DNA of 56,917 nucleotides from a virus. Below, piece by piece: positions 4,391 through 53,363 of the stretch (its first letter is position 1; each line of letters begins with the position of its first letter). Below the pieces are notes generated by a model. The model saw only the letters and a program-made list of their open reading frames with translations. It made no database searches and was not told the DNA's origin. The position numbers were made by a program, and so were the translations under genes. The stretch lies in the IMG/VR virus record IMGVR_UViG_3300035660_000009, positions 1-56,917 of that record; one strand, given 5' to 3'.

Positions 4391-6037
4391 TTAATCCTCC
4401 TTCTTTCCCTTATGCACCTTGATGGCCTCCACCAAGGTGCTAGGTGTTGTGATAACGTGCTCCACACCACCAGACTGGAGACACAACCTAACCCGGCAAC
4501 CCCTACTCGACACACCGGGGTTGGCGGACACACGCACGTGGTACATCAGGTTGGCGGCTAAGGATTCGGTGAGGGCTTCCTTGTCCTTCTTCGTCCATTC
4601 CCCCTCGTGGGACTTGAACAACTCACCGGAGACCGTGAGGGAGAGAACTTCCTCGGGGAACCCACTCAATGTTGCCACGTACTCCAACCACTTCTGTTGA
4701 TTCACTCCCAGCTCTTTCCCAACGGTCAGGAGGTTCGTGACGATGTCCGACCGTGTCTTCGCTGTCTCCGCCTGCTGGAGTTCGTCGAGGTAGCTTACAG
4801 GGTGTGCACGTACTGTGAACTCGTTCTCCTCCCGCACAACATCAATACCACGCATAAGGAGGTCGATCTGGATCAACCACGAGACACCCACCATGAGACC
4901 GTTCTGAACCCGCTTCACACCTCTCGAGTACCGAATGTCTTGGTTCGCAAGGGGTGTGTTCGCACTCAGCGTCCCACTCGTGTCAGCAAACCCCATGTAG
5001 TCTGGTGGGACTCTTACACACCCACTCAACTTCTTCCTCATGTACTCGATGTCGAGGACGTTCCCCGTTTGGGTCGACCCGTGGAGAACGTCCACGTCAG
5101 TCAGCAACCCGTCCGCTGCGGGGATAAACACATCCTCGTCAAGGGACATGGGATTCATCTCAGACCTGATCTCCCCAGTCGTGGTGTCAACCAACATGTT
5201 CTTCCGCAACGCCTGGCGGAAGTACTGGACGATCTCGTTCGCCTCATCCGGGGGTGCGTCACCCACATCGACCTTCCACTTGAGTCTGTCGGGGTGGCGC
5301 CTAACCCGGTACAGCACGAGGCACTCCTCCATCAACCTGAGATACTTAAACGTCCTCCTCGCCGCTGCCAGAAGGGACGACCCATGGTTGGGGTCCTCCA
5401 CTGACCTCCCACCGAGGAACCAGTGGATGTAGTCCCAAGGTGCGGACAACCCCGGAGCGGTAGGGTCGGGTGAGACTTGGAGACCACCGACGTCACCCAC
5501 ATAGAACCCTGCCACTCTCCCGAACTTGTCCATCACCTTCGAGATCTGGTACGGGTTCTGCGTTCTAAGCGCACCCACACCCGCGGGTTGGCCTCCCTCG
5601 CCCACCTTCTGCTGAACAGCTTCAAAGTGGTCACCATACTTGGCCATCCCACGAGCAATCGTGAACGCCTTCGACTCCATCCCGACCTGGTCCAATAGGT
5701 CGTTCGCCAGTTTCTCTATGTCGGGGTTCCTGGAAACAACCCACAGGACCCTCCCCGTCGCGGTGTCGGGTTGAACCGCATCCTCACTGTACATATCGAG
5801 GACACTCGATAAGATATCCTCGTCGTCCATCATGTCGTACTCTCGGTACCGCCCGACCCTGTCGGAGGCGATACGGGTGACGTCCTGGAACCACTTGAAT
5901 ACGGGAGAGTCCTCCCCGAGGGGACCCCACTTGGTGGGGTCTAACATCTTCCCCCTGAAGGAGACCCTAGGTGGGACACCTTGGGAGTACCCGAAGAATG
6001 TCAACAGCGCACGGAGGGGATGGACATCAAGTGCCAT
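4391..6037 (-). CDS. Portal protein
   Basis: The portal forms the dodecameric channel at one capsid vertex through which the terminase pumps DNA. The 548-aa length, position 3 nt after the large terminase, and the segment RYREYDMMDDEDILSSVLDM ('yR.YD.Md.d..i..ALdiyaee', typical of gp20-type portals) support the call. Further sections (DIRYSRGVKRVQNGLM, EEVLSLT) also fit. The ATG at 6037 has AAGGAAGG upstream. The last 40 residues look like a short appended beta-domain (VRLCLQSGGVEHVITT). It belongs to the terS-like/terL/portal packaging block. Confidence 0.85.
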   Translation of the reverse strand: MALDVHPLRALLTFFGYSQGVPPRVSFRGKMLDPTKWGPLGEDSPVFKWFQDVTRIASDRVGRYREYDMMDDEDILSSVLDMYSEDAVQPDTATGRVLWVVSRNPDIEKLANDLLDQVGMESKAFTIARGMAKYGDHFEAVQQKVGEGGQPAGVGALRTQNPYQISKVMDKFGRVAGFYVGDVGGLQVSPDPTAPGLSAPWDYIHWFLGGRSVEDPNHGSSLLAAARRTFKYLRLMEECLVLYRVRRHPDRLKWKVDVGDAPPDEANEIVQYFRQALRKNMLVDTTTGEIRSEMNPMSLDEDVFIPAADGLLTDVDVLHGSTQTGNVLDIEYMRKKLSGCVRVPPDYMGFADTSGTLSANTPLANQDIRYSRGVKRVQNGLMVGVSWLIQIDLLMRGIDVVREENEFTVRAHPVSYLDELQQAETAKTRSDIVTNLLTVGKELGVNQQKWLEYVATLSGFPEEVLSLTVSGELFKSHEGEWTKKDKEALTESLAANLMYHVRVSANPGVSSRGCRVRLCLQSGGVEHVITTPSTLVEAIKVHKGKKED

Positions 6038-6040
6038 GCA

Positions 6041-7876
6041 TCACCAACCTTCCTTTACAAACCTAACCTCACGACCCACAACGGGGACAACCACACCGCG
6101 TTGCCGCGATGTGTCACGCGGTCGACGTTGAGTGCGCAGGATTGTCAAGTTCCCCACAACACCCGCGACGGCTTGGGCAATGTCATCCGTCCCCTTTTCG
6201 GGGTGCTCGGGTGTGGAAAGCCCATCCAGCGGTTTCCTCAACTGCACCAACTCCTCCACCAGAGGGGGATACCAATAGTAGTTACACGCGGTGGGACCTG
6301 CGTAGACCTTGCTCCTGAGATCCTTGTACTCCTTCAACGTGATGCTCAACTTATCCGCCTCGAAACCCACTTTCCCGAGCAACTGGATAGAGTGCTTGGA
6401 TTGGAATTGGTCATAGGTAACGCGGGCAAACCTGAACCCTCGCCCACGAAGGTACTGGAAGAACTCCACGATGGAGGACAGGTCAACTTCTCCGATGGTG
6501 GGAGGGACGATCCGGAGGACTAGGTCGAAGTACACACCACCCAAATCTGTTTCGTGGCCCACCGCCAGGCCAAGAGGGTCACCAGTGAGACCAATATCAA
6601 CATGACCAACCCTCAACGCGTGAGGATCCTTAATTGGGACCGACCGGGACCTCTCTGTGTGGAACAACAACTCGGGACGGAGGAACGGGATGAGACTCGC
6701 GTCGGGATCCTTCGAGCTCAACAACGAGACAACCTCACAAGTGAAGGGGTGAACTCTGGAGTGGTCCACACACGAGTGGACACACTCCGTCCGCGTGAAG
6801 AAGTGCCCGTAAGCCGCAACAGACCTCCCTGCGAGGTCGCGGATTGCCTCGTCGGTGTCCTCCAAGAACACACCAAGGTGCTCCACGGGAACATCCAACA
6901 CCTCAAAACCACTGGGAGGGACCTCGTCGTCATCAAGCACCCTACTCGGTACACCCTCCCGTCCCACCAACACCTGGAACTTCTTCCTCGACGGGTAGTC
7001 CGACACAGGTTTGACATCCCAGAGGGCAAAACGGGTTACACGGATCGAGGGGTCTGGTCCTGCACTTCCACCTTTCGCAACGCCCTCACGCTCCTCAAGG
7101 AACTCGGTCTCGGTTCTCTCAGAACCCAATAGGCACGTGAGACCAGGTACCCTACCGAACCGCATGAACCGGGACTGTTGCCGCCTCTTCGCCTGCTTGT
7201 AAATCTGGTGCGCTCTCGTCCTATCGGAGGGACGGACAACCTTCCCGGGAACCTTCCGAAAAAAGTTTGCTTCATCTAGACAGTAACCAAACACATTCTC
7301 ACCCAACACATGCTCGGCAAGACTCCCGACGAGGATCGTGATGTTCTTACTCGGGATATGGATAGGGTCGTCAGGGCGCCTCCTCCTCGGAGCGTGGTCA
7401 CGGAACCAGGGGATTGCATCCAACCAACTCTTCAACTCGTCGTATCCGACGTCCGCTTTGTCAAGGGTAACACTGAAGAAGGCGAACACAATCTCCGAAC
7501 CGGGCAGGTGCCCGTAGTACGCGGAGGGGTCCCGGATACAACAAAGTTCGTAGATTTTGTAAAGTTGCGCGAGGGTGGACACGGTTGTCTTCCCAGTACC
7601 CACGGCTCCCTTTATAACCCACTCCGTTACTCCATTCGAGGGGTCCAACACGTAACACAACTCGGTGAGCCACTTTGGGTGGAGTCCACTTGTAAGGCCA
7701 CCCATATAGTATTCACAGGTGAAGAACACCTCAGGGGAGACAGGGACAAACTCGTAGTCCTCCCCCCAGAGTGCACCCAGCAAGGGGGACGTACCCTGTT
7801 GGTCCAACTCCTTGAGCACCTCAGACAGAACGAGATGGCCCACCGGAGACAACTCACTTTGGGAGTTGCTACTCAC
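6041..7876 (-). CDS. terL: Terminase large subunit
   Basis: This is the ATP-driven packaging motor and genome-cutting nuclease. A Walker A motif, GAVGTGKTT, lies near residues 90-98, and a Walker B-like segment, FGYCLDEANF, follows about 110 residues later. The C-terminal nuclease half begins near HVDIGLTGDPLGLAVGHE, the first acidic site of the RNase H-like fold. The 611-aa length suits the family. A GTG start at 7876 follows AAGGGG and overlaps the upstream zinc-finger gene by 8 nt. The portal follows immediately. Confidence 0.93.
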   Translation of the reverse strand: MSSNSQSELSPVGHLVLSEVLKELDQQGTSPLLGALWGEDYEFVPVSPEVFFTCEYYMGGLTSGLHPKWLTELCYVLDPSNGVTEWVIKGAVGTGKTTVSTLAQLYKIYELCCIRDPSAYYGHLPGSEIVFAFFSVTLDKADVGYDELKSWLDAIPWFRDHAPRRRRPDDPIHIPSKNITILVGSLAEHVLGENVFGYCLDEANFFRKVPGKVVRPSDRTRAHQIYKQAKRRQQSRFMRFGRVPGLTCLLGSERTETEFLEEREGVAKGGSAGPDPSIRVTRFALWDVKPVSDYPSRKKFQVLVGREGVPSRVLDDDEVPPSGFEVLDVPVEHLGVFLEDTDEAIRDLAGRSVAAYGHFFTRTECVHSCVDHSRVHPFTCEVVSLLSSKDPDASLIPFLRPELLFHTERSRSVPIKDPHALRVGHVDIGLTGDPLGLAVGHETDLGGVYFDLVLRIVPPTIGEVDLSSIVEFFQYLRGRGFRFARVTYDQFQSKHSIQLLGKVGFEADKLSITLKEYKDLRSKVYAGPTACNYYWYPPLVEELVQLRKPLDGLSTPEHPEKGTDDIAQAVAGVVGNLTILRTQRRPRDTSRQRGVVVPVVGREVRFVKEGW

Positions 7877-8546
7877 CTAACGAAACCCCTTCACCACCCT
7901 GCTTCAAGAGTCTCCTCAAAACCTCCCTGTCCAACCCGGTCAACTTCCCAATCAAGAGAGTCCTCTCCTGCACCTTTTCGCCGACTGCGACGAGTCCCTT
8001 CGCACCCGACATCGCACCCTTCAGGATGTTGACCAGTTGGACGAAGAATTCAGACGAACCAGTGCTCCTCAGACTAAGTATACGTTCGAGGAACTCGGAC
8101 TCCCTAGTCAGGGTCTCGGCGAGGTGCTTCTGTAAGTCCACCAACTGCTCACTAGTGAAACCCCTAACCGAGGTGGGGTCGAGTTTTCCCACCAACGCTG
8201 CGTCGAGGTTCGCCAGCGCGGGTCCGAGTTGTGCAATCCTCATAACCTTATCGAGGGCAACCGAGATGAGTGTCAACCTGAGTTTCACCTCTTGCTCGGT
8301 CATCGCGTCCGCGAGGGTCGAGACGGCTTGGGTCCTCTCGGGTGAACCCAGTTTGTCGACCAACGCGAGGAGGCCCCTAAGGGTACCCATCGCGAGGGTG
8401 ACACTCTCTGGTGGTCCCCTCTGGGTAGGATGTTTGTAGCGAGTGTGGCGACCCAGTGCTTGGGTCCCGTGGCATGTGTAACCACACCCCTCAACGGGGC
8501 ACTTCACCAGTGGTCTTGTTGCCTTCTGTTGCAATCCGTTCACCAC
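7869..8546 (-). CDS. Zinc-finger DNA-binding protein, candidate small terminase subunit
   Basis: The N-terminus holds one C2H2 finger: CPVEGCGYTCHGTQALGRHTRYKH region, residues about 16-39. The rest is strongly helical (residues 50-225), including an extended amphipathic section that could oligomerise. Its position directly before terL, with overlapping ends, is where small terminases usually sit, and DNA recognition by such a finger would suit that role. There is no sequence match to a known TerS family, so this is positional inference. It could instead be a regulator. The GTG start at 8546 has only a weak Shine-Dalgarno. Confidence 0.5.
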   Translation of the reverse strand: MVNGLQQKATRPLVKCPVEGCGYTCHGTQALGRHTRYKHPTQRGPPESVTLAMGTLRGLLALVDKLGSPERTQAVSTLADAMTEQEVKLRLTLISVALDKVMRIAQLGPALANLDAALVGKLDPTSVRGFTSEQLVDLQKHLAETLTRESEFLERILSLRSTGSSEFFVQLVNILKGAMSGAKGLVAVGEKVQERTLLIGKLTGLDREVLRRLLKQGGEGVSLGE

Positions 8547-8611: not shown

Positions 8612-9337
8612 TTATTTGCATCGGCGGCGACGGAACGCCAATAGTCCGCCCAAGGTCAGCAGCGCGAGCGTTGCCGGTTCAGGAACAACCAAGATGGTTG
8701 CCTTGTATTCGTCCCTGGATTCGTTCACGTGAATATTCACTGCACACGGCGTACCGTCCATCCACTCACCAGTGAGGAGGCCTGTACCCAAGACACGATT
8801 CCCATCCCACCAAAGACCACCGCGCACATCGAAGTTCCTTCCGTGGAAAGTAACAACACTGCCGGGGTAGGCACAGAGGGTGTACACCGAACCACCAAAG
8901 ACATCTACAACGCCAGAGGTAAAGAGACCGTCTACCCATCCACCATAGATGTTCGCAGTACCATTATCGGCAAGGACGTCGAGGTGGTCCACCGAGCCGC
9001 CCGAGATGTTCACGACGCTGCCGCTGCCCCAGGTATAGAGGTAGTACACCGAACCACTCAAAATGTTCAGGGTACTAGCGTTATAGGCAATGAGAGTACC
9101 TGCTGATCCTCCACAGATATTCACAGTACTACAATCGCGGGCGTAGAGACCGGTTACGTACCCACCCGGGACAATAAATGCTCGGCTCGTATCATAGAGA
9201 GAGCCTTCAGAATGGGTTGTGTTGACTGTCATTTGCTGTCCATCCCAGAGAATAAAGTTGCCCCGACTCTCTCCAGTCAGCACACCGACCAGCACCAGAC
9301 CCACCCCGACTGTCAGTATAAGCGCTGTCCGTTTCAT
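8612..9337 (-). CDS. Secreted repeat protein with a PEP-CTERM sorting signal
   Basis: The first 26 residues are a classical signal peptide (MKRTALILTVGVGLVLVGVL). Residues 218-241 carry VPEP, a hydrophobic helix ATLALLTLGGLLAF and an RRRR tail, the three parts of a PEP-CTERM exosortase signal. Between them are about six irregular repeats of the form 'S-x-V-N-I-x-G-G-S-V-x-x-L' (for example SVVNISGGSVDHLDVL), expected to form a beta-helix. The ATG at 9337 has AAAGGAG, which lies inside the last codons of the upstream nuclease gene, so the gene is integrated into the phage operon. Function unknown; surface display in the infected host is the obvious hypothesis. Confidence 0.85.
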   Translation of the reverse strand: MKRTALILTVGVGLVLVGVLTGESRGNFILWDGQQMTVNTTHSEGSLYDTSRAFIVPGGYVTGLYARDCSTVNICGGSAGTLIAYNASTLNILSGSVYYLYTWGSGSVVNISGGSVDHLDVLADNGTANIYGGWVDGLFTSGVVDVFGGSVYTLCAYPGSVVTFHGRNFDVRGGLWWDGNRVLGTGLLTGEWMDGTPCAVNIHVNESRDEYKATILVVPEPATLALLTLGGLLAFRRRRCK

Positions 9338-9339
9338 GG

Positions 9340-10044
9340 CTACTTCTCCTTTCCGGCGACCTTGTCACCTTCTGTTGCAACCCCAATCCCCTCTTTCCCG
9401 GGAGACCAGACACAAGCGACAAACAACTGGATGGGAAGAATGGCGATAGGTGAGGGTGTGTCGTTGACAAGAACGTGTGTGTAAAAACACCCCACCAACC
9501 CAACCCCCACCACTTGAGGGTTCACCATAACCAGGTCGTAACCCAACCCGTTACGGGAAAAGACAAGAAGGGGAAGCACACGTTTCGGGCGTGCCGTGGT
9601 CACAGCGACAGATTCTTTCACAGCACCCTGCCACCACTGGACAATAACGGGGTTGGCAATCCTTGGGTTGACCAGATCGCTGAGAGACCATTCCTGCTGA
9701 TTCTTGCACTCAACCAAAAAAGGGAACCCAGAGTCGGGTGGGATGTAGAGGTCGCCGTACGCATACACCTCGCCGTCGTGCTGGTGCTTGTCCCATCCAC
9801 CACTACAGGGTGTACGCCTGAAGGGTTTACCCTGCCACCACTCACCAAGTATCTTCCCCACGTGTGACTCGTACGAGGAACCCTTCGTCTTACCCCGGTG
9901 GGGGTTGAATGGAGGTTTCGCCAACTCCCTAACCCTAGACAACATATCCGGGGGCAGGGTGGTAGCGGAGAGAGCGGAGGACACGAGACTCTGGATCTTC
10001 TCCAGTCGTGCCCTAACCCGCTGCTGGTAGATTACCTTCTCCAT
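9340..10044 (-). CDS. PD-(D/E)XK nuclease, Holliday-junction-resolvase-like
   Basis: The catalytic core is visible: SSYESHVGKIL (helix with the first Glu), then GDLYIPPDSGFPFLVECKNQ, i.e. G-D-(x)n-E-x-K, followed by W-S-L-S-D-L. This arrangement is that of Hjc-type and related resolvases and of phage recombination nucleases. The 234-aa length and the position just downstream of the SbcC/SbcD pair support a role in resolving or trimming recombination intermediates. The ATG at 10044 (AAGGAG upstream) is preferred over longer frames. A transposase-like or restriction-like role cannot be excluded. Confidence 0.7.
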   Translation of the reverse strand: MEKVIYQQRVRARLEKIQSLVSSALSATTLPPDMLSRVRELAKPPFNPHRGKTKGSSYESHVGKILGEWWQGKPFRRTPCSGGWDKHQHDGEVYAYGDLYIPPDSGFPFLVECKNQQEWSLSDLVNPRIANPVIVQWWQGAVKESVAVTTARPKRVLPLLVFSRNGLGYDLVMVNPQVVGVGLVGCFYTHVLVNDTPSPIAILPIQLFVACVWSPGKEGIGVATEGDKVAGKEK

Positions 10045-10169
10045 CCCTCTCTCCTTGCGTACACGTCCAACCAGGAGATGAACTTCCCGAAGAGCCACAC
10101 ACAGAGGAGACCGAACACCCACCAAGAGACATCAATCTCCTGGACAACCCTTGTTACCTCACCGAGCAT
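10032..10169 (-). CDS. Small membrane protein, 45 aa
   Basis: An ATG at 10167-10169 is preceded by GGAGG at 8 nt, just after the SbcC-like stop at 10190. The frame gives a 45-residue protein with one transmembrane segment, roughly WWVFGLLCVWLFGKFISW, and a basic tail (YARREGWRR). It overlaps the nuclease start at 10044 by 13 nt, the coupled arrangement seen across this genome. No function is recognised. Confidence 0.65.
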   Translation of the reverse strand: MLGEVTRVVQEIDVSWWVFGLLCVWLFGKFISWLDVYARREGWRR

Positions 10170-12172: not shown

Positions 12173-13261
12173 TCAGGTGGACGCATGACTCACCTTGCCA
12201 TGTACCCGCTTGACTATATCGTTTCCCACCTCAACCAACTTCGTGGGGTCGAAACCCTCCCCGTTCTTCTCCACGTAAACCCTTATGTAGTCGTTCAAGG
12301 AGGGTGGGGGAGAACCCTCGGGTGTGGCAACTCTCACCTCCACCTTCCGAGTACTCTTCTTGTTGAAGACCACCAGAGTGGCACCCATCGTGGTCAAGAC
12401 TTGTGTGACCTTTCCCTCGTCCACCTCACCGGAGTAGTCTACCCTGACCACCTGTTGGTTGAACCTCTCAGGGAGGACGTCACAAAGGGGTGTAGCATCG
12501 AGGTCGAGGATCACGAACCCGGTCGACCTCACCCGAATGTGCTCGATCGTAACCCCATCCGGACCGGGACCGATGGTAACAGCGAGGAACCCCTTCGGTT
12601 CCTCCGCCTCGGAGAAGTCTCTCGCGACCAGCGACCCGACGTACATCACTCCCTCACCCACCGCCTGCATCTTGTGGTAGTGGCCGAAGAAGGAGTGGGT
12701 AGCGTGACGGAAGAGTCTCGGACTACACCCCTCGGGGGGTCTATACTCGTGCTGACCCACCACAGCACCCTCCAACGCGAGATGGCCCACCACGATGTGG
12801 GGTGCCGCGTTGTCGTACAACACGAACTCGGCTAGGGTTTGGGGGAGGTCCGCGTAGTGGGTTGTGTAGGGGACGAAGAGAACGTGGCAATCGGGGTAGG
12901 TCTTCATCCGGGGTTCACCCAATACGATCTCGTCCACGTCATTCCGTAACCCGAACAGGATGGACTCACCGAGGTTTCCCACATCGTGGTTCCCACCGAC
13001 GAGCACGGTCTTCACCCGGTCCTTCCACCGCTCGAAAAACCTCGAGACGGTGTTGAAGACCTCGGTTTGGACCCTCTCACCTGAGTGGAAGAGATCGCCA
13101 GCGCAAAAAACATCAGTGATCCCGTTCTCGACACACCAAGAGTACATCCGCTCCATTGCACTCAGGGTCTCCATCACCCTCGAGTTCATCCCGGACGAGT
13201 GCACGGAGGAGAACATCGAGAAGGGGTGGATATGAGTGTCTGAAAAAATCGCTACTCTCAT
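12173..13261 (-). CDS. SbcD/Mre11-like nuclease (T4 gp47 type)
   Basis: All calcineurin-like phosphoesterase motifs are present: FSDTHIH (motif I), AGDLFHSGE (II), VGGNHD (III), VVGHLALEG (IV) and FFGHYHKMQ (V). It is the metal-dependent nuclease partner of the SbcC-like ATPase. The ATG at 13261 begins MRVAIFSDTH, has GGGAG upstream, and overlaps the TGA of homing endonuclease 1 as ATGA. The longer frame to 13318 lies wholly inside the homing endonuclease and is rejected. Confidence 0.92.
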   Translation of the reverse strand: MRVAIFSDTHIHPFSMFSSVHSSGMNSRVMETLSAMERMYSWCVENGITDVFCAGDLFHSGERVQTEVFNTVSRFFERWKDRVKTVLVGGNHDVGNLGESILFGLRNDVDEIVLGEPRMKTYPDCHVLFVPYTTHYADLPQTLAEFVLYDNAAPHIVVGHLALEGAVVGQHEYRPPEGCSPRLFRHATHSFFGHYHKMQAVGEGVMYVGSLVARDFSEAEEPKGFLAVTIGPGPDGVTIEHIRVRSTGFVILDLDATPLCDVLPERFNQQVVRVDYSGEVDEGKVTQVLTTMGATLVVFNKKSTRKVEVRVATPEGSPPPSLNDYIRVYVEKNGEGFDPTKLVEVGNDIVKRVHGKVSHAST

Positions 13262-13971
13262 TGGTGTAACTCCCTCTCCGTCCAGACGACGAACGTCATC
13301 CCGTGCTCTGTGCACCAACGGCGTCCGGCTTCGAACCTCGACTCCTTCACCTCAAGTTGCCACTCTGCAACCACCTCAACCAACTCTTGTTTCCCGGAAC
13401 GGTACGTGACGAGGATGTCCGGGATGTACCTATGGGGTGAACCATCTTCTCGGAAGTATGGAATCGAGAATGGTTCCGGAACGAAGGAGACAACCTCCGA
13501 TAACTGCTCCAAGAGTTTGTATGCCAGCAACTCGTAGGACGACCGGTAGTGTAGCCTCTTTCCGTTCTTCGCCGAGTCGAAGTAGCCACCACGTCCTTGC
13601 CGTTCCGGGTGGAATTTTCCCTCGAGGATAAGCCGAGACATAGTTGAGGACTTCTTCGCACGTACCTCTGGTCGCTTGCACGGGTGCTTGTCACCCCTAA
13701 CCTTCTCAAGAACGATCGGGTTCCTCATTGGATTTCGGTCGCCAAGCATTCGTTGCCTAGAGGCCTCTTTCTGCGACTCCGTGACGGTATGACCCAACCC
13801 GAACCGGTTGCCCAACCTAGCCAACCGGATCTTCTCCCTCACTTCAAGTCGCTTACTAGGGTTCTTATCGCCACGCACCGACAAGTGTGGACCCACGGCA
13901 TTCCTACTACCAAGCATTGACAGACGAATCCTCTCTTTCGCCTTCGAGGTGTGCAGTTGCCCCACTCTCAT
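13258..13971 (-). CDS. Homing endonuclease 1: NUMOD3 repeats plus PD-(D/E)XK-like domain
   Basis: The first 130 residues carry about six NUMOD3-like repeats built around GDKNP-(S/M)KR and 'MLGSRNAVG' units with basic helices. The C-terminal 100 residues form a nuclease-like domain: RSSYELLAYKLLEQ, EPFSIPYF, YIPDILVTYRSGKQELVEVV, then CTEHGMTFVVWTE. The P-D...E-x-V line resembles a PD-(D/E)XK active site but lacks the usual final lysine. Two paralogues lie at 32547-33191 and 52643-53362. It sits between the ribbon-helix-helix gene and the SbcD-like gene, a typical homing-gene position. SD GGAGG precedes the ATG. Confidence 0.8.
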   Translation of the reverse strand: MRVGQLHTSKAKERIRLSMLGSRNAVGPHLSVRGDKNPSKRLEVREKIRLARLGNRFGLGHTVTESQKEASRQRMLGDRNPMRNPIVLEKVRGDKHPCKRPEVRAKKSSTMSRLILEGKFHPERQGRGGYFDSAKNGKRLHYRSSYELLAYKLLEQLSEVVSFVPEPFSIPYFREDGSPHRYIPDILVTYRSGKQELVEVVAEWQLEVKESRFEAGRRWCTEHGMTFVVWTERELHQ

Positions 13972-18623: not shown

Positions 18624-18995
18624 CTAGGTTCCGGGAGTGGGTGGGTCGGGAGCGGGTACGCACCACCTCTTGCGCCACCCCTCGAGCCAGTCCGGGTGGT
18701 CGGTCTTGTGGCGCAAAGCCAACCAAGCACCCACCAACTCCAGGTCACCGTAGGTTTGGAGGTGCCCCCAAGGTGTCTCCACCCACTTGGGGCACTCGTT
18801 GTACAACAAGGAGCAGATGGAGAACAACGTTGTCCGGTTCTCCTCGTCAGCCCGTCCCATGGCTTCCATAAGGTCGTTGGACAGGACCGCTCGCAGGAAG
18901 CCTCCGGGAGGGACGAAGTCGGTGAAGTACGCACGAAGAGCCTCTCGCGTCCGCTGGGGCACATGTGCGTACTCGGCTTGGTCAAAGTTTAGCAT
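18624..18995 (-). CDS. Conserved phage hypothetical protein, 123 aa
   Basis: The ATG at 18995 follows AAGGAGG. The core 'PQRTREALRAYFTDF-PPGGFLRAVLSNDLMEAMGRAD' then 'FSICSLLYNECP' matches a pattern I know from many phage and metagenome proteins ('tr..L..Yv..g..PGgFL.AVL.NDL..A...AD'), about 70-120 aa and functionally unassigned. It is the first gene right of the island. Confidence 0.65.
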   Translation of the reverse strand: MLNFDQAEYAHVPQRTREALRAYFTDFVPPGGFLRAVLSNDLMEAMGRADEENRTTLFSICSLLYNECPKWVETPWGHLQTYGDLELVGAWLALRHKTDHPDWLEGWRKRWCVPAPDPPTPGT

Positions 18996-20355: not shown

Positions 20356-22329
20356 TCACCCACATCTCGACCACCCACAACCCAAACATTGCTTACACCC
20401 ACCAGCCCTCGCGAGTGGTTCACCACAGTCGGGACAGGTGTCATCCTCCAGTCCGACAATCGCTTCGATCTCCTTGTTGGTAAGACCAACCCCGACTGGT
20501 TCGCCTTTCAGCTCGTTCAGTAGCACTCGAGCAATCGCGTCGGGACACGAGAGGACCTTTGCACCCGTCTTGATGCACGAGTGACACTTGATCCCACGCA
20601 GGTCCTCAGCCACAGTGCGGAGTGAGGTCTTCCCCTGAGCGATGTCACTGAGAAGGATACCCAATGCAGAGGATTGTGAAGGGCACCCCCCTTCCTTCCC
20701 GACTTGTGCGAACACCTCCCTAACTTCCCCGTCCCACTTGTTGACGTGGAGGAATAGGGACCCACACCCGATCTGTTGCTCAACCGTCTTACCCACACGA
20801 CACGGGGGTCGCCTCCCCGTTCCCGCAACCTTGAGGACCTGTCCCTCCCTACACCCGTCCCGGTAGACTGTGATGCCCTTACAACCCAAAGCGTGTGCGA
20901 GGAGGATCGCCTTCCCGATGTCTTCCTTGGTCGCGTCGTGTGGCAGATTTATGGTCTTACTAACACCACCCCCCACGTGCTCCTGAAACGCCGCCTGGAT
21001 CTTGATGTGTTGTTCCCAGGGGACCTCATGCGCAGTTACGAAGTAGTCGGGTACCTTCTCCTTATCCCGAAGCGACCCGTACAGGGGGTGAACCACCTCA
21101 AACTCCTTCTCCAACGATTTCTGTGTGTAGACCCAAGAGAAGTTAGGCTCAATCCCGGAGGAGGTTCCCGCGATGCGAGAGATCGACCCGGTGGGTGCGA
21201 TTGCCAGCAACAGAGCGTTACGTCTCCCCTTGGAACCGTTACCGTGGAGCGGATACGGTCCTCTCTCCTCACCAAGGTGGAGGGACTCGTCTTCAGCGAC
21301 TCGCTGTAGGTTGGTTGACAACTGTTCCGCAAACTTCACAGCGTCTTCGCTATTGTAGGAGACCCGCATCTTTAGGAGAGCGTCAGCAAACCCCATCACA
21401 CCAAGACCGATTGCGCGTGTCTTCGCCGCCGCCTCGGCGAGTTCGGGGAACGGATAGTTTCCCCTATCCACCACCCTATCGAGGAACAGCACGGCCAACC
21501 TAATCACACGTGCGAGGTCGTCCCAGTCCACCTCTCCGTCCTTCACGAACTTCGCCACGTCGATGCTCCCGAGATTACACACAGATGGTGAGGGAAGTGG
21601 AATCTCCCCACACGGATTCGTCGCAACGATCGGACCTAGCGACGGAACGGGGTTGTCCCTGTTGATCCTGTCGTAAAAAAGAACACCGGGTTCACCCGTC
21701 ATCCACGCGCTCTCAACAATCTTATCGAAGAGCTTGCGTGCCTCGAACGCATCGTCTGGGGGTTGTGCCGAGAAGAACTTGTCGGGTATCATCACGGAGA
21801 GGTTGAAGTTCTGGAGTTGGGAGGTGTCCCTCTTCGCAGTGATGAACTCCTCCACATCGGGGTGACTGATGTCCATCACACCCATGTTCGCACCCCGCCT
21901 ACGCCCACCCTGTTTGATTGCTACGGTAGTCGCATCAAACATCTTCAGGAACGCGAGGGGACCGGACGCCTCACCCCCACTACCGACCTTCGACCCGCGA
22001 GGACGCAGTGAGGAGAACGAGAATCCAGTTCCGCCGCCTTGAGAATGGATCTTCGCCATCTTGTACTGCGCAGTAAGGATGGACTCCATCGAGTCTTCCA
22101 GTCGCACCACGAAACACGCGCTGAGACAACCATTCGTCGCACCCGCGTTCATCAGGGTGGGTGAGTTGGGAAGGAACCTGAGTTTCTTCATCTCCTCGAG
22201 GACATCAGACCGAACGTGCTCGGGTTCGTCCTGTAGGACGTAGTCCACCACCCTCTGGAACATCCCCTCAACGGTTTCGTCACCGTGGAGGTACACGGTA
22301 CGGAGTAGATTCTCAGTTAGTGGATCCAC
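20356..22329 (-). CDS. nrdJ: Adenosylcobalamin-dependent (class II) ribonucleotide reductase
   Basis: Reduces ribonucleotides to deoxyribonucleotides with a B12-generated radical. Characteristic segments are LPNSPTLMNAG, GCLSACFVV, GGGTGFSFSSLRPRG, TNPCGEIPLPSPSVCNLGSID (the last with the active-site cysteines), and APTGSISRIAGTSSGIEP. The C-terminal tail CPDCGEPLARAGGCKQCLGC supplies the redox cysteines. I place the start at the GTG at 22329 (AAGGAG upstream), because the longer 732-aa frame has an unrelated low-complexity N-terminus. At 657 aa it is a compact NrdJ. It should supply dNTPs for phage replication if the host provides cobalamin. Confidence 0.92.
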   Translation of the reverse strand: MDPLTENLLRTVYLHGDETVEGMFQRVVDYVLQDEPEHVRSDVLEEMKKLRFLPNSPTLMNAGATNGCLSACFVVRLEDSMESILTAQYKMAKIHSQGGGTGFSFSSLRPRGSKVGSGGEASGPLAFLKMFDATTVAIKQGGRRRGANMGVMDISHPDVEEFITAKRDTSQLQNFNLSVMIPDKFFSAQPPDDAFEARKLFDKIVESAWMTGEPGVLFYDRINRDNPVPSLGPIVATNPCGEIPLPSPSVCNLGSIDVAKFVKDGEVDWDDLARVIRLAVLFLDRVVDRGNYPFPELAEAAAKTRAIGLGVMGFADALLKMRVSYNSEDAVKFAEQLSTNLQRVAEDESLHLGEERGPYPLHGNGSKGRRNALLLAIAPTGSISRIAGTSSGIEPNFSWVYTQKSLEKEFEVVHPLYGSLRDKEKVPDYFVTAHEVPWEQHIKIQAAFQEHVGGGVSKTINLPHDATKEDIGKAILLAHALGCKGITVYRDGCREGQVLKVAGTGRRPPCRVGKTVEQQIGCGSLFLHVNKWDGEVREVFAQVGKEGGCPSQSSALGILLSDIAQGKTSLRTVAEDLRGIKCHSCIKTGAKVLSCPDAIARVLLNELKGEPVGVGLTNKEIEAIVGLEDDTCPDCGEPLARAGGCKQCLGCGWSRCG

Positions 22330-22573
22330 TTCCCTCTCCTTGCCTACACCTCTTGCAGTGGAACCTCTTGTACGTACGCCACCTCTTAGGATCCTCACAG
22401 CACATGCGCACCCGAGTTGCACACCCGTGCTCGACCCCCTCCACAGCAAACCGGGCGTCCCGCCACCAAACGATGTCTCCCACCTCGGGTGCTCTACCGA
22501 GGAGCCTCTCAACGAGGTTCGCGATCGTTGTGCAGCTACCGCACACCCTACCAATACGACGCGTGGTTCTCAC
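22313..22573 (-). CDS. Small Cys-rich protein, 86 aa
   Basis: The GTG at 22573 follows AAGGGAG. The protein has seven cysteines (CGSC, C near 58, CC, then C-x2-C near the end: HCKRCRQ), suggesting two zinc sites. It overlaps the reductase start by 17 nt, the spacing of coupled translation. Function unknown. Confidence 0.5.
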   Translation of the reverse strand: MRTTRRIGRVCGSCTTIANLVERLLGRAPEVGDIVWWRDARFAVEGVEHGCATRVRMCCEDPKRWRTYKRFHCKRCRQGEGSGSTN

Positions 22574-27125: not shown

Positions 27126-27464
27126 CTACCCCAACTCACTCACATCATGACCCAACTTCCGCAACCAGTCCGCTAACAGATGCCGGTGGCAGTGCTTGTC
27201 AGGTCCCTCCCAACAAAGGAGCACCATACCATCCCTTAGTAGACCCTCCACCCGACCAACCCCGAGGTGGTCGAGTTGAGTTACGTACTGCTTAGCGTAG
27301 TCCTCCCAACTAAGACCGTGGTACTTGTAATCCGCCACCAGGTCCCATGGTGGGGTAAGTTCCGGGATCGCTGGAAGGTTCGGAAGCCACCAGTTACGTC
27401 CCCCGATGGAGACAGCGTTCGGGTGCTTACCGTGCTTCGCGAAGTAACTGGTGCAGAGTTTCAC
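27126..27464 (-). CDS. DUF488-family protein
   Basis: The frame from GTG 27464 gives 112 residues with the DUF488 pattern: a conserved N-terminal strand, then ...LLRDGMVLLCWEGPDKHCHRHLLADWLRKLGHDV, i.e. 'lLC.E....CHR..la..l...G..V'. The Cys and His are the conserved pair. The family is widespread in bacteria and phages and of unknown function. The GTG overlaps the polymerase TGA (GTGA) with GAAGGG upstream. Confidence 0.75.
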   Translation of the reverse strand: MKLCTSYFAKHGKHPNAVSIGGRNWWLPNLPAIPELTPPWDLVADYKYHGLSWEDYAKQYVTQLDHLGVGRVEGLLRDGMVLLCWEGPDKHCHRHLLADWLRKLGHDVSELG

Positions 27465-29968
27465 GTGATTCCCTTCACCTTTATGCTGTCGTCGCCCCAA
27501 CACCGACCGATGGTAGCCTCGGTAGGGATGACCTGGCCACCCAACTCGGGAATGGGTTTCTCGAGTTCCTCCTTCACGATCTCCGCAGTGTCCACAAGCT
27601 CGTCCTCGGGGCACTCACCGTGCCACGCGTCGTGGTGGCTTATCAACAAGCGACCCTTTAGCTTATACTTCCTCAACCTCTCCGCGATCCGAATGGCACC
27701 CAATCCGAGGGCGTCGTTGGCAGGCGACTGGATAGTAACGTTTACCGCCATGCGATACATTTCGTTCAGCGCCCTTCGAAAGTCCCCGAGAACCTCCTTC
27801 GAGTGCCTCCGTTCCTCGAGTGCCTTCTTGAGCATTGGTGCAGCGTAGAGTCTCCGCTTTCTCCCGAACGGAGAGACGATTATCCCCCCGGAGTCCACTA
27901 TCGCTCTAGTCTTGGCAAAGTGAGCAGCCACACCCTTGAAGAGGCTGAAGTAGGAGTCGATGTACTTTTGCGCCTCCCCCTCGGAACACCCCAAGTCCTC
28001 CGCCAACCCGTACGCCGTCTCGCCATAGTTCAACCCGAAGACCACAAACTTCGCGAAGTACCGTTGCTCCTTGGTAACCAACTCTGGAGGGATGCCATAC
28101 TTCTGCCCAGCAACACGCATGTGGACGTCTATCTTGACAACCTTCCCGTCAGGGAGTTGGACCTCTGGTGGGTGGAGCAACATATCGAGGAGTGTGTCAT
28201 CCGGTGCGACCTTCGCCTCCACGTAGAGTTCCGCCTGCTGGTAGTCGAAACTCAGGAACACCCACTCCTCGGTCGCGGCGAAGATCCTCCTGAAGGTTGC
28301 CTGTTCGGGGTCATCAGTGTCCCTCTTGATGTTCTGTATCGCTGGGTCCTCACTCGACAAGCGGCCCGTGACGGCACCGTGAAGCTTCCACCTTGGGTGG
28401 ACTCTCCCATCCGACCGGACGTGTTTGAGGATTCCTTCATTTCCGTTCATCCCCCTCAAATAGGTCCCGATGTCGTGTGCAATCTGTGTGGCTTTGATGA
28501 GTTCCCCCGCAACCGGGTGGACCTTCTTCAACTCGGTCAACGCGGCGGCATCCGTGGTGGGGTTTCCCTTCGGGTTGGACACACAAGGAGGGTTTCGTCT
28601 CACGATGGGGAGCTTCAACTTGTTGAACAACACGTCCACCCTCTGCTGGGGTGACCGAATGTCGAACTCACACCCCGCTGCTTCGTACACCTTCTTGACC
28701 TGGTCACTGTAGCGAGCCATGTAGAGTTCGTGGTACTCGTTCAGGGTGTCCATGTTGATCCTGATCCCGTACCACTCCGCGTCGGCCATGACCCTCGCGT
28801 ATGGGAGGGTGATCCGGTTGTGGACCTTCAGGACGTCCTCGGTAACTGCGTCCCTGAGGACCGCACGAGAAACCCTGTAACCCACGTCCGCGTCCTTTGA
28901 TGAATATTCCCAAAGTTTGTCGTCGGGAACGTTGCTCGCACCACCCTTCTTCCTCATCTCGGGAACGTCTTTGTACTCCCCACTCACGTCGGTGTACCAA
29001 CCAGAGAGGAAGTCGAGTCCATGGGGGAGGTTCTCGTCCACCAGGTGGTGTAACAACATGGAGTCCACCACGAGACCTTCCATCTCGATCCCAAAGGACC
29101 CCCGGAACATGAGTCTGTCGAACTGCTGACCATTCTGCATCGCTTTCGGTGTATCACCCTCGAGGAACCTCTTCAGAGCACCAACCACGCGAACCTTGTC
29201 GTCGGGAGACCAGACCTCCCTACCTTGGTACCCCACAATAGGTACCGCCCACCCCGTACCCTCCCTATTGGAGAAGCTCACGCAGACCACTTTGTCGGAC
29301 AAACAGTCGAACCCGGTGGTCTCGGAGTCGACCTCACAGAAGTCTATTGTGGAGTCCGAGAGTCTCCTCAACACCCACTCGACCTCCTCGGGTGTCCGAC
29401 AGACGGAGTACTTGGTCTCGATCTGGTGGTACCCCTCACGACAGATCCTAAGAGCAAGGGAGAGGTCCCTACGAAGGGGCAACTCATCCTGCCACCTACG
29501 GAGGGCACTCGCGGGGTGGAGTGTGGGGATGAAGTAGACACCGGGGAACTCGTCTGACGTCCTCACACTCCCCCTAACCTTTGTGATCCCCGACCTCCCA
29601 ACCCTAAGGACGGAGTGAGCAGCGAAGTTTCCCATCAGGACGACCACCTTGGGGTTCAACCGTCTGATGTCGTCCACCAGGTGGGGTCGGCATGCATCAA
29701 TCTCCTCATCGGTGGGGTCTCTGTTACTAGGAGGACGACACCGTAGAATGTTTGCGACGGGAACGTCTTCCCTCCTGATACTAACCCACCCGAGGACCCT
29801 GTTCAACAACACACCCGCGTCGCCAGCAAAGTTCCGCCCAGTCCTGTCCTCCTCCCAACCGGGAGCCTCCCCGACCAACATCAGACCTAACCGGCACTCG
29901 TCACCGTCACACGGGATACAGTTCCTCTGTGCTTTGTCGAAGAGTTGGCACTTGGTGCAAATGGGCAT
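27461..29968 (-). CDS. Uracil-DNA glycosylase-DNA polymerase I fusion
   Basis: Residues 1-180 are a family 4/5-type uracil-DNA glycosylase: CxxC and Cys pair (CTKCQLFDKAQRNCIPC) for an iron-sulfur cluster, GEAPGWEEDRTG, and the HPASAL motif near 151. From about 205 a DnaQ-like 3'-5' exonuclease begins (CEVDSETTGFD). The C-terminal family A polymerase has motif A (SFDYQQAELYVEA), motif B (RYFAKFVVFGLNYGETAYG) and motif C, where the usual HDE reads HHDAWH. The start MPICTKC has GGAGG upstream at 10 nt; the tRNA gene occupies the DNA just before it. This is the replicative or repair polymerase. Confidence 0.93.
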   Translation of the reverse strand: MPICTKCQLFDKAQRNCIPCDGDECRLGLMLVGEAPGWEEDRTGRNFAGDAGVLLNRVLGWVSIRREDVPVANILRCRPPSNRDPTDEEIDACRPHLVDDIRRLNPKVVVLMGNFAAHSVLRVGRSGITKVRGSVRTSDEFPGVYFIPTLHPASALRRWQDELPLRRDLSLALRICREGYHQIETKYSVCRTPEEVEWVLRRLSDSTIDFCEVDSETTGFDCLSDKVVCVSFSNREGTGWAVPIVGYQGREVWSPDDKVRVVGALKRFLEGDTPKAMQNGQQFDRLMFRGSFGIEMEGLVVDSMLLHHLVDENLPHGLDFLSGWYTDVSGEYKDVPEMRKKGGASNVPDDKLWEYSSKDADVGYRVSRAVLRDAVTEDVLKVHNRITLPYARVMADAEWYGIRINMDTLNEYHELYMARYSDQVKKVYEAAGCEFDIRSPQQRVDVLFNKLKLPIVRRNPPCVSNPKGNPTTDAAALTELKKVHPVAGELIKATQIAHDIGTYLRGMNGNEGILKHVRSDGRVHPRWKLHGAVTGRLSSEDPAIQNIKRDTDDPEQATFRRIFAATEEWVFLSFDYQQAELYVEAKVAPDDTLLDMLLHPPEVQLPDGKVVKIDVHMRVAGQKYGIPPELVTKEQRYFAKFVVFGLNYGETAYGLAEDLGCSEGEAQKYIDSYFSLFKGVAAHFAKTRAIVDSGGIIVSPFGRKRRLYAAPMLKKALEERRHSKEVLGDFRRALNEMYRMAVNVTIQSPANDALGLGAIRIAERLRKYKLKGRLLISHHDAWHGECPEDELVDTAEIVKEELEKPIPELGGQVIPTEATIGRCWGDDSIKVKGIT

Positions 29969-29994
29969 CGGGGTCAACCCTCCCCATCTTGGGG

Positions 29995-30081
29995 TGGACC
30001 GGTGGGTGGGATTTGAACCCACATCCCACGGTTGCTCGTGCACTCATTACCGTGTGCGTTAACCAATTTCGCCACCACCGG
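29995..30081 (-). tRNA. tRNA-like gene with an 18-nt anticodon loop; CCA encoded
   Basis: The minus strand folds into a cloverleaf. The acceptor stem CCGGTGG/CCACCGG is perfect, followed by discriminator U and an encoded CCA. The D arm is GCG/CGC with a TTGG loop. The T arm GTGGG/CCCAC has loop TTCAAAT. The anticodon stem CACGG/CCGTG is perfect, but its loop is 18 nt (TAATGAGTGCACGAGCAA) instead of 7, and no simple 11-nt deletion restores U33, so the anticodon cannot be assigned. A class II fold with a long variable arm does not pair. The 5' 23 nt overlap the 3' end of the methyltransferase gene. Confidence 0.7.
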
Positions 30082-32546: not shown

Positions 32547-33191
32547 TCACGATCGGGTAACAACTTCCTCCTCCGACCAGACAACGAACGTTACTCCATT
32601 CTGCCTACACCACAGTTTTCCAGCGTGAAGTTTCAGATGCTTCCGCTCAAGTTCCCATCCCGCTGACACCTCGATCAACTCACGTCTCCCGGAAAGGTAC
32701 GTGACGAGAATGTCGGGAATGTATCTATGGTGAGAACCATCATCTCGGGTGTACGGGATCGAGAACGGTTCAGGTGTAAAGGAGGAAACGGTCTCGTCAG
32801 TTTCCAACCTTTGGTACGCGAGCAACTCATAGGACGATCGATAGTGGAAACACTTTCCGTTCTTCACGGAATCGAAGTAGCCACTCTTACCTCTGTGTTC
32901 AGGGTGGAGTTTGCCTGCAAGGATAAGTCGAACCTTTGCCTCAGACACACGCGCACGTGCGCATAATTGAGACATCGGATTCCTACCACCCCGAATCTTC
33001 GCCTTCACCTCCTCACGCTTCATTGGATTCTTATCACCACACACCGATGGGCGTGGTTTTCCCTTTTGCGTCTCACCACTCTTCCGAGAGACGTCGGATC
33101 GCTTCATTGGGTTGTTGTTGCCACGGATCGATGGACGAGGACCTACAGCGTTCTTGTTGCCACGCATCGACAGGCGTCGCTTCTCATTCAT
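32547..33191 (-). CDS. Homing endonuclease 2: NUMOD3 repeats plus PD-(D/E)XK-like domain
   Basis: Paralogue of the 13258-13971 gene: repeats of RGNKNAVGPRPS and GDKNPMKREEV, then RSSYELLAYQRLE, EPFSIPYTRDDGS, YIPDILVTYLSGRRELIEVS and QNGVTFVVWSEEE. The expected catalytic K is again replaced (EVS). ATG at 33191 (MNEKRRLSMRGNK) is my start; no good Shine-Dalgarno is visible, unlike for neighbours. It interrupts the space between the 67-aa gene and the exonuclease, with promoter element 7 left on its downstream side. Confidence 0.78.
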   Translation of the reverse strand: MNEKRRLSMRGNKNAVGPRPSIRGNNNPMKRSDVSRKSGETQKGKPRPSVCGDKNPMKREEVKAKIRGGRNPMSQLCARARVSEAKVRLILAGKLHPEHRGKSGYFDSVKNGKCFHYRSSYELLAYQRLETDETVSSFTPEPFSIPYTRDDGSHHRYIPDILVTYLSGRRELIEVSAGWELERKHLKLHAGKLWCRQNGVTFVVWSEEEVVTRS

Positions 33192-33234
33192 ACTAGCACA
33201 CCACGAACAGTGCGTCAGGAGAAGGCATAGTCGT

Positions 33235-33438
33235 TCACCAACCCATCGCTTTTGACTCGCGAACGTGCTCTTCCTGACCACCGGGTTGAGCACGCAACTC
33301 TTTCATCCGTTGCAGCCAATAGGCACCCGTCTCACCCTGGAATATCGGATCACCCACAGGTACGAAGCGAACATGGTGAAGCAAATCCGCGTAAGGCAAC
33401 GAATCAATGTACTGCTTCTTCGCTGGCGTGAGATCCAT
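33235..33438 (-). CDS. Conserved small phage protein, 67 aa
   Basis: ATG at 33438, GGAGGTGG upstream. The sequence 'LTPAKKQYIDSLPYADLLHHVRFVPVGDPIFQGETGAYWLQRM' matches a short phage protein type I recognise ('Lt...k.yId.lsy..LL...RfaPvGDpmFqGe.G.Yw...m'), without assigned function. The homing endonuclease inserted just downstream. Confidence 0.65.
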   Translation of the reverse strand: MDLTPAKKQYIDSLPYADLLHHVRFVPVGDPIFQGETGAYWLQRMKELRAQPGGQEEHVRESKAMGW

Positions 33439-33505: not shown

Positions 33506-34105
33506 TTAAGTGGTGAGTTCCCCATGGTCAACCCGAGCGTTACCGAAGACCAGAGCGTTACCGAAGACCAGAGCGTTACCGGAGACCTGAGCGTTACCGT
33601 GAACCAGAGCGTTACCGGAGACCAGAGCGTTACCGTAAACCTGAGCGTCACCGGAGACCTGAGCGTCACCGGAGACCAGAGCGTTACCGGAGACCTGAGC
33701 GTCACCGGAGACCAGAGCGTTACCGTAAACCTGAGCGTCACCGGAGACCTGAGCGTCACCGAAGACCCGAGCGTCACCGAAGACCCAAGCGTTACCGTAA
33801 ACCTGAGCGTCACCGGAGACCTGAGCGTTACCGTAAACCTGAGCGTCACCGGAGACCTGAGCGTCACCGTAGACCAGAGCGTTACCGTAGACCTGAGCGT
33901 TACCGTAGACCTGAGCGTCACCGTAGACCCGAGCGTTCACACCGACGAAGGCAGTTTCGGCGACCTTCGCGGTCTCCGCGATCCAACCGCCACCGTTCGG
34001 GTGGTGGTGGTACACAACACCGTCGACCGCCTGGGTTTGGTCCCACCAGGAGTCGGGTACGGACACACCCGTATCGCTCACCCACCTAGCTACTATCCGA
34101 GACAT
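33506..34105 (-). CDS. Hexapeptide-repeat beta-helix protein
   Basis: After a 60-residue N-terminus (MSRIVARWVSDTGVSV... VVYHHHPNGGGWIAETA), about 22 hexapeptides of the form G-(D/N)-A-x-V-(Y/S/F) follow (GDAQVYGNAQVYGNALVY). These predict a left-handed beta-helix like that of the hexapeptide transferases and of repetitive phage proteins, but no acetyltransferase catalytic residues are seen. The repeat is almost uniform at the DNA level. ATG 34105 follows AAGGAGG; ATG 34141, also with a GGGAG site, is an alternative. A structural or adhesive role is a guess. Confidence 0.7.
   Translation of the reverse strand: MSRIVARWVSDTGVSVPDSWWDQTQAVDGVVYHHHPNGGGWIAETAKVAETAFVGVNARVYGDAQVYGNAQVYGNALVYGDAQVSGDAQVYGNAQVSGDAQVYGNAWVFGDARVFGDAQVSGDAQVYGNALVSGDAQVSGNALVSGDAQVSGDAQVYGNALVSGNALVHGNAQVSGNALVFGNALVFGNARVDHGELTT
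33536..33936. repeat. Tandem 18-bp repeat array, about 22 units
   Basis: Plus-strand units read GAGCGTTACCGGAGACCA with small changes (C/T at position 7, GAAGACC or GTAAACC variants). Each unit encodes one hexapeptide of the minus-strand protein. Unit length 18 and the absence of variable spacers exclude CRISPR. Slippage in such an array should produce length variation. Confidence 0.9.
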
Positions 34106-34144
34106 GACTTTCTCCTCCTTGGTGAGATCCGGATATCGCATCCG

Positions 34145-34585: not shown

Positions 34586-35260
34586 CTATTTCTTCGTGAC
34601 CAGTGGGTCGGGCGCACCCACAACAGCGAACGCGTTCGCCCTGTACACGCAACTCTCACACTTCCCGCAGGGTCGGTCACCGTTCAAATAGCAAGACCAA
34701 GTGAGTTGGAAAGGAACACCCAACTCGAGACCCACCTTGACGATGTCCCTCTTGGGGACACCGCTCCACGGGAGGACGAGGTCGGGTGGGGTAGCGCTCG
34801 CACCAGTTCCCACCCTAACGGTCTCAGTGAGGGACCGGTAGAACTCAGGGGTGCAGTCCGGGAACCCTTTACAGTCGTCCTGGTGTGCACCGATGACGAC
34901 CACACTCACACCCAAACTCTCCGCGAACGCACACGCGACGGACATGAACACGAGGTTCCTCAGCGGGACGATGTAGTACGAGGGTCCCTCCCTGTCGTTC
35001 TCCTCCACCTTCACGGTATCCTTCCCCCGGGTGAGGGGTGAGACGAACACCCGCTTGAGGACGTTCAGGTCGAGGACCGTATGGGAGATCACACCCAGAG
35101 CCTCTCCCACTTTCAGGGCACACTTCACCTCCCGCCGTGCCCTCTGCCCGTACAGGATGGAGAGTCCAACCACGTCATACCCCTTCGACTTCATCCAGTA
35201 AGCTACTGTGGAGGAGTCCACTCCCCCACTCATCAGAACCACCGCTTGCGGGTTCGTCAT
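34586..35260 (-). CDS. queC: 7-cyano-7-deazaguanine synthase QueC
   Basis: Converts 7-carboxy-7-deazaguanine to preQ0 with ATP and ammonia. It has the N-type ATP pyrophosphatase P-loop SGGVDSSTVAYW near residues 11-22, the mid-domain IVPLRNLVFMSVA and IGAHQDD, and a C-terminal zinc site C-x(9)-C-x2-C-x2-C (CYLNGDRPCGKCESC). 224 aa is standard length. ATG at 35260. It is the last gene of the deazaguanine cluster, 4 nt after the D12-like gene. Confidence 0.93.
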   Translation of the reverse strand: MTNPQAVVLMSGGVDSSTVAYWMKSKGYDVVGLSILYGQRARREVKCALKVGEALGVISHTVLDLNVLKRVFVSPLTRGKDTVKVEENDREGPSYYIVPLRNLVFMSVACAFAESLGVSVVVIGAHQDDCKGFPDCTPEFYRSLTETVRVGTGASATPPDLVLPWSGVPKRDIVKVGLELGVPFQLTWSCYLNGDRPCGKCESCVYRANAFAVVGAPDPLVTKK

Positions 35261-36371: not shown

Positions 36372-36708
36372 CAGGTGACTCCTTACCAAAGGACTCCTCA
36401 TAGATCGCCAACGTGCTCGCGGCGACACCAACAAGTAAACGAGTGGCCTCGATAGGATCCCCACGACCCACAACACCCAACGCGAGAGCACACTCCACAA
36501 ACCTTCCCACCTGCCCATCCAACATGCAGCACCAACCCGCAAGGGTGAGGACTGGTACACACTCCTTAACCCGACGTTGCCTCTCCCGGAGGACGAGCTC
36601 GAGAAAGGCTGCCCGAGGAGGGGGTGGTAGGAGGGAGGCCCAGTGGTTACCCGCAACCTTGGTCAACTCCTCAAGGTGGGTTGCACGGTCAACTCTCTCT
36701 GGAGCCAT
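36325..36708 (-). CDS. Hypothetical helical protein, 127 aa, within the deazaguanine cluster
   Basis: ATG at 36708 begins MAPERVDRATHLEELTKVAG with GGAG upstream. It overlaps dpdA by 46 nt and the D12-like gene by 47 nt. All-helical pattern (AFLELVLRERQRRVKECVPV, ALALGVVGRGDPIEATRLLV), no known motif. Its position between two modification genes suggests a connected role, unproven. Confidence 0.55.
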   Translation of the reverse strand: MAPERVDRATHLEELTKVAGNHWASLLPPPPRAAFLELVLRERQRRVKECVPVLTLAGWCCMLDGQVGRFVECALALGVVGRGDPIEATRLLVGVAASTLAIYEESFGKESPDVRARVDVDPPTGGT

Positions 36709-52639: not shown

Positions 52640-52655
52640 ATATTATATGGCAACC
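52640..52655 (-). promoter_or_regulatory. Phage promoter element, copy 13
   Basis: Minus-strand sense GGTTGCCATATAATAT, 23 nt before the start at 52616. The last codons of homing endonuclease 3 (RVAI-stop) are encoded by the element itself. Confidence 0.8.
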
Positions 52656-53362: not shown

Positions 53363-53363
53363 A

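Follow-up and report, generated by a model that had tools for sequence, protein, structure and literature searches.

A candidate exosortase substrate of planctomycete type encoded among the core genes of a phage

The 56,917-nucleotide viral record IMGVR_UViG_3300035660_000009, the whole of which was analysed and is termed the window here, encodes a 241-amino-acid protein that, judging from its sequence, belongs to a family of PEP-CTERM proteins of the Phycisphaerae. We consider it likely that this protein is a host-derived exosortase substrate, which was acquired by the phage and during infection reaches the cell envelope or matrix, where it is either displayed or shed. The phage would thus probably use the sorting machinery of its host to alter the infected-cell surface. 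Exosortase substrates are bacterial surface and matrix proteins. What we computed is the gene, its tail, a fold prediction, its family, the presence of exosortase in the genomes of its relatives and the absence of this enzyme from the phage record. The gene, its parts and its neighbours are as follows.

8612..9337, minus strand: gene of the PEP-CTERM, predicted beta-solenoid protein, 241 aa, ATG start (ORF, profiles, homologues, model)
9260..9337, minus strand: codons 1-26, probable Sec signal peptide (MKRT, hydrophobic stretch, SRG/NF; from hydropathy and homologue alignment, with a putative cleavage site)
8687..9259, minus strand: codons 27-217, repeat body, predicted beta-solenoid (repeats; AlphaFold2 pLDDT mostly >90)
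8615..8686, minus strand: codons 218-241, PEP-CTERM tail with VPEP, hydrophobic helix and RRRR (PF07589 and TIGR02595 above cut-off; model helix 221-240)
9346..9351, minus strand: ribosome-binding site AAGGAG, 8 nt 5' of the ATG, within the 3' end of the PDDEXK gene (sequence)
9340..10125, minus strand: PDDEXK endonuclease gene (PF24608; RusA-like phrog_244), upstream neighbour (profile matches)
7869..8546, minus strand: downstream neighbour, 225 aa, in the small-terminase position (putative function, from position and a weak homologue in the related phage L005; no family match)
6041..7876, minus strand: terminase large subunit (tblastn to annotated phage terminases; weak phrog_2)
4391..6037, minus strand: T4-type portal, PF07230 (profile matches)
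8515..8537, no strand: direct repeat flanking the PEP-CTERM gene, copy 1 (20/23 identity)
9361..9383, no strand: direct repeat flanking the PEP-CTERM gene, copy 2 (20/23 identity)

The tail of the protein (VVPEPATLALLTLGGLLAFRRRRCK) exceeds the curated cut-offs of both PEP-CTERM profiles, with 24.1 bits (E 3.5e-5) against the Pfam family PF07589, whose cut-off is 20.7 bits, and 27.2 bits (E 4.2e-6) against TIGR02595, whose cut-off is 16 bits. The window contains no other PEP-CTERM match, and the control genomes gave none at all (0/14). At the other end, MKRT is followed by a single hydrophobic stretch (residues 4-21), where the 17-residue Kyte-Doolittle mean rises to 2.57, and no membrane segment lies between this N-terminus and the tail, as the hydropathy mean does not exceed 1.24 over residues 21-216 and the body is all-beta in the model. 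The putative signal peptide is likely to be cleaved at SRG/NF, which aligns with RAD/RGD/RCD-F of the host homologues. The body consists of about six [ST]VNIxGGSVxxL units, seen in the DNA as a family of direct repeats. In the mature part, K+R amount to 3.7% (7/191) and Cys to 2.1% (4/191), as against about 0.4% Cys reported for PEP-CTERM proteins (PMC1569441).

AlphaFold2, run on 14 aligned sequences, gave a model with a mean pLDDT of 88.4, in which an N-terminal helix (3-20) is followed by an almost all-beta body (26-218) and by a C-terminal helix (221-240) that starts directly after VPEP. The repeat units and the predicted strands are consistent with a beta-solenoid. Foldseek searches of PDB and BFVD with this model gave no significant match; the weak top PDB matches include adhesins and pectate lyases. 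Elsewhere in the window, a second solenoid protein (33506-34141, minus strand) contains beta-solenoid repeats of the YdcK type (PF18836) and also matches bactofilin.

The gene sits among phage genes. On the minus strand, the order of transcription is an SbcC/Rad50-like gene, the PDDEXK nuclease gene, the gene of the 241-aa protein, the gene in the small-terminase position, the terminase large subunit and the T4-type portal, and SbcD-like and RecA genes are also found on the PDDEXK/SbcC side. The AAGGAG motif lies inside the last PDDEXK codons (ending in GKEK and the stop), and the PDDEXK stop precedes the ATG of the PEP-CTERM gene by 2 nt; promoter and terminator scans returned nothing dependable. 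The initial annotation had placed the gene between terminase and recombination genes, with a ribosome-binding site embedded in the upstream phage gene and with signal, repeat body and VPEP-helix-RRRR tail all intact. All of this was borne out, the N-terminal signal being a predicted one.

The affiliation of the protein is planctomycete. When two successive VNIxGG units were searched as a DNA pattern among 84,980 species genomes, the matches fell mainly in Planctomycetota, and many of the matched proteins end in PEP tails. In protein searches of whole genomes, homologues were found in 6/392 genomes across the Planctomycetota phylum (E < 1e-6), in 17/397 genomes of the class that contains a Phycisphaeraceae-named genome (E < 1e-10), and in 49/161 genomes of one planctomycete order. 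We assign this class to Phycisphaerae through the named locus L041, and it also takes in the best genomes of the homologue-rich order. Full-length homologues in Phycisphaerae are 42-55% identical to the phage protein, and the five that were compared gave 53, 55, 43, 46 and 43%. The closest are those of genomes G610 (locus L191, 53%) and G621 (L192, 55%, with more repeats), followed by G571, G450 and G578. The G621 homologue shares 25/34 residues of the N-terminal block and 52/76 residues of the C-terminal block, and the comparison of the two genes (pN 0.25, pS 0.56) indicates that the protein sequence is conserved. The gene tree, largely star-like and unresolved, says no more than that the phage copy lies among those of Phycisphaerae. 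The homology spans the whole length of the protein, body and tail, and this rules out a PEP motif arisen by chance. In one Phycisphaerae genome (L198:7074-11584), short solenoid-type genes alternate with secreted-looking genes of 144-146 aa.

At least one of these homologues has a mobile context itself. The G450 homologue (L196:15706-16593) lies within an 11.9-kb element (L196:6797-18741) bounded by an exact 45-bp repeat, one copy of which (6797-6841) is beside an integrase gene while the other (18697-18741) forms the 5' part of an intact tRNA-Arg. This element also encodes terminase-large-subunit-like and DnaB-like genes, and it resembles a prophage remnant or a phage satellite. The family thus travels on integrated elements at least once. 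The G571 homologue has type I restriction genes around it and a phage-type integrase close by, and at least one neighbour of the G610 homologue is chromosomal (ATP-citrate-lyase-like). A mobile-element context is therefore suggestive in 2 of the 5 homologue loci examined, a count that is not to be taken as a statistic.

How did the gene come to the phage? Its GC3 is 0.57, lower than in the other phage genes for which this value was obtained (0.63-0.77). In L005, the sole distant relative with a shared gene order (terminase 45% identical), no PEP-CTERM gene was found between the Rad50-like and terminase genes, and this interval is occupied by other genes. Based on its place between core phage genes, its low GC3 and its absence from the one available relative, the gene reads as an acquired moron, and it was almost certainly taken from a planctomycete bacterium. 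The imperfect 23-nt repeat that flanks it (20/23, where the best of 60 random pairs with the same spacing reached 17/23) may be an insertion scar, which we offer as a lead only. The same gene arrangement is found in a near-identical contig from another IMG/VR metagenome (3300032046_000161); over 13 kb the two differ at 4 positions, all of them outside the PEP-CTERM gene. Besides this contig, no other phage with this repeat body was found among the IMG/VR viral contigs, and no close relative of the protein was found in the sequenced phages of INPHARED or in plasmids.

The window contains other genes of note. In an 860-aa ORF (27461-30043, minus strand, as are all those that follow), DNA polymerase I is fused to a uracil-DNA glycosylase of family 4, which passes the TIGR00758 cut-off. 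The genes at 34586-35260, 39433-40131 and 54332-55723 encode QueC and a pair of radical SAM proteins, one of them weakly similar to QueE, which suggests 7-deazaguanine chemistry, perhaps for DNA modification. A glycosyltransferase family 9 (heptosyltransferase) gene at 53364-54335 is another candidate host-surface modifier. Three related genes (13258-13971, 32547-33293 and 52643-53404), whose DNA is 68-72% identical over about 300-370 bp and the first of which has a TnsA-like N-terminal endonuclease, are possibly homing endonucleases. An intein splicing domain (PF14890) is found at 36663-38540, and a similar stretch lies within the portal ORF of the related phage (L005:11709-14636). Finally, the gene at 20356-22554 encodes NrdJ (above cut-off), a ribonucleotide reductase that requires adenosylcobalamin, which makes the phage dependent on B12 from its host.

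PEP-CTERM genes are also found in other phages. A search for the pattern VPEPATLALL matched 32 viral contigs, and among the 31 whole viral records obtained from it, 30 pass the PF07589 cut-off, L005 being the exception. Most of these records carry one PEP-CTERM family (family A), which is unrelated to the 241-aa protein and occurs in uncultured phages of about 42 kb (its loci include L016, L029, L031, L037 and L108-L185). An alignment search found family A in 140 IMG/VR viral stretches, and a portal, capsid or terminase gene lies within the fetched flank in 34 of the 79 kept loci. Family A is under purifying selection, with a dN/dS of about 0.2-0.6 among eight members, dS being high in the distant pairs. 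A second family (family B) occurs in four records of about 42 kb (L007, L020, L028 and L032), each with a second, weaker PEP-like tail; in L007, the family B gene adjoins a phrog_67 DNA methyltransferase gene. Single pattern matches, such as those in L023, L027 and L033, may be host DNA. No exosortase was found in the seven PEP-CTERM-bearing viral records searched, and no relative of family A in INPHARED and plasmids. A tblastn search of INPHARED with the tail only gave no match, although so short and low-complexity a query may be filtered out. The initial annotation had called such a gene between terminase and recombination genes unusual: this stands for the sequenced phages of INPHARED, in which no homologue was found, but it does not for uncultured phages, which repeatedly carry PEP-CTERM genes. 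The open-access papers searched gave no description of phage-encoded PEP-CTERM proteins or exosortase substrates. As far as we have seen, the parts are known and their combination in a phage is undescribed.

No exosortase (PF09721) was found in the phage record. Among the homologue-bearing genomes, 15/16 have a PF09721 exosortase (9/10 and 6/6 in the two sets), the exception being G489, a 1.9-Mb genome. That the gene points to an exosortase-bearing host, as the initial annotation had it, is supported by the Phycisphaerae homologues and by the enzyme in nearly all of their genomes. The annotation's refuting case, a host devoid of exosortase, does not apply to this putative host group, which was itself identified through this same gene. 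Two of the host exosortases pass TIGR02602, and neither reaches a named subtype. One host exosortase is followed by a gene that looks, from its sequence, like a polysaccharide chain-length determinant, in keeping with the known link to exopolysaccharide loci (PMC1569441). The PEP-CTERM gene by itself hints at a host among the Phycisphaerae; no other host could be assigned to this phage. The terminase of the record was found in 0/161 genomes of the planctomycete order with most homologues. A 183-kb phage contig in a Phycisphaerae genome was considered as a host clue and set aside: its portal and terminase are only about 29% identical to those of the phage, its terminase is no closer than the best sequenced-phage terminases, and it thus says little about the host.

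These elements lead us to the following scenario, in which the expression, export, cleavage and display of the protein are what we infer. It follows the scheme of Haft et al. (PMC1569441): during infection, Sec would export the protein, and its tail would anchor it in the inner membrane so that VPEP faces the periplasm. The host exosortase would then remove the tail, after which the solenoid would either be exposed on the cell envelope and the exopolysaccharide or be released into them. The likeliest gain for the phage would be a changed surface of the infected cell, through receptor masking, superinfection exclusion or an altered matrix; the initial annotation had likewise suggested surface remodelling or a block to superinfection. 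That the specific benefit is superinfection exclusion or receptor masking is a guess, to which we give somewhat less than an even chance. We rate it first among the possible gains, matrix or aggregation effects second, and the passenger and decoy alternatives after them.

The first alternative is that the gene is a passenger, a host gene caught by chance, useless to the phage and heading for decay. Its restriction to this phage and a near-identical twin, its absence from L005 and its foreign GC3 would agree with this, but all functional parts are intact, the ribosome-binding site is well placed and other phages keep PEP-CTERM genes; the excess of pS over pN against the closest host gene also speaks against decay, though constraint in the host lineage contributes to it. 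We hold this unlikely. A role in the matrix, in which the solenoid acts in the exopolysaccharide as the host's PEP-CTERM proteins do when flocs form and for example holds infected cells in aggregates, is somewhat less probable still: the gain is less obvious for a lytic phage, even though PEP-CTERM proteins have been linked both with exopolysaccharide loci (PMC1569441) and with floc formation (PMC9850573), and a host exosortase adjoins genes that read as exopolysaccharide-type. A decoy, that is, a bulk protein that occupies the host exosortase so that host surface proteins stay unprocessed and the matrix or receptor set is altered, would explain a substrate without exosortase in the phage record and would suit hosts in which numerous PEP-CTERM proteins share a small number of exosortases (74-143 matches in each of three planctomycete genomes). 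It would have no need for a conserved solenoid of 190 residues, and the conservation with host proteins runs through the entire body, which makes this reading improbable. Lastly, we reject an assembly artefact joining a host fragment to a phage contig, for which the foreign GC3 and the lack of PEP-CTERM matches in annotated phages with the queries used could be invoked, as the same junctions occur in two metagenome contigs (perhaps from one study) that differ at 4 positions in 13 kb, and phage genes flank the gene on both sides.

The interpretation that we favor, an acquired moron encoding an exosortase substrate, is supported by the tail scores, the lone N-terminal hydrophobic stretch, the predicted solenoid with its terminal helices, the ribosome-binding site with its 2-nt spacing and the Phycisphaerae homologues. 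It is further supported by the exosortase in 15/16 genomes, the low GC3, the absence from L005, the second contig, the homologue in the tRNA-Arg element and the purifying selection on the PEP-CTERM genes of unrelated phages. Against it stand a host deduced from this gene alone, the failure to find the terminase in the homologue-rich order, a body present in no other IMG/VR phage and a Cys content of 2.1% vs about 0.4%. More tentatively, and with odds that we place a little under even, exosortase substrates could form a general class of phage cargo, by which unrelated uncultured phages and planctomycete integrated elements, devoid of exosortase, place chosen proteins on the surface of the infected or lysogenic cell via the host pathway, for example to keep other phages out. 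If phages do use the exosortase, this sorting pathway is a phage-host interface, and a small phage-borne substrate would be a handle on the surface function of PEP-CTERM proteins, a question open since 2006.

The closest known system is the PEP-CTERM/exosortase (EpsH) system itself (TIGR02595/PF07589 with TIGR02602/PF09721; PMC1569441), with which the 241-aa protein has in common the hydrophobic N-terminus with no further membrane segment, the C-terminal PEP motif followed by a hydrophobic helix and a basic cluster, and the few basic residues of the mature part. It differs in that it is phage-encoded and lies 2 nt behind another gene, whereas the bacterial genes stand alone behind a large intergenic region, in that the exosortase is absent from the same genome record, and in its higher Cys content. 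With the Phycisphaerae family (L191, L192, L193, L194 and L195), it shares an N-terminal block of the FILW-DGQQMTVNTTHS type, the repeats, the C-terminal block GTGLLxGEWxDGTP and the tail, but it has fewer repeats than the G621 relative and is sited in a phage genome. Families A and B are, like it, phage-encoded exosortase-type substrates with no exosortase in the records searched; their bodies, however, are unrelated to it, and the phages that carry them are of another type, with portal, capsid or terminase genes as neighbours of the PEP-CTERM gene. The Llp protein of T5 and the Cor proteins of phi80 and N15 are phage-encoded envelope proteins for superinfection exclusion, which block a known receptor at the outer membrane. 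Like them, the 241-aa protein is a phage-encoded and, as predicted here, exported protein that would take a host route to the envelope; they reach the outer membrane by other routes, whereas the route proposed here would be that of the exosortase.
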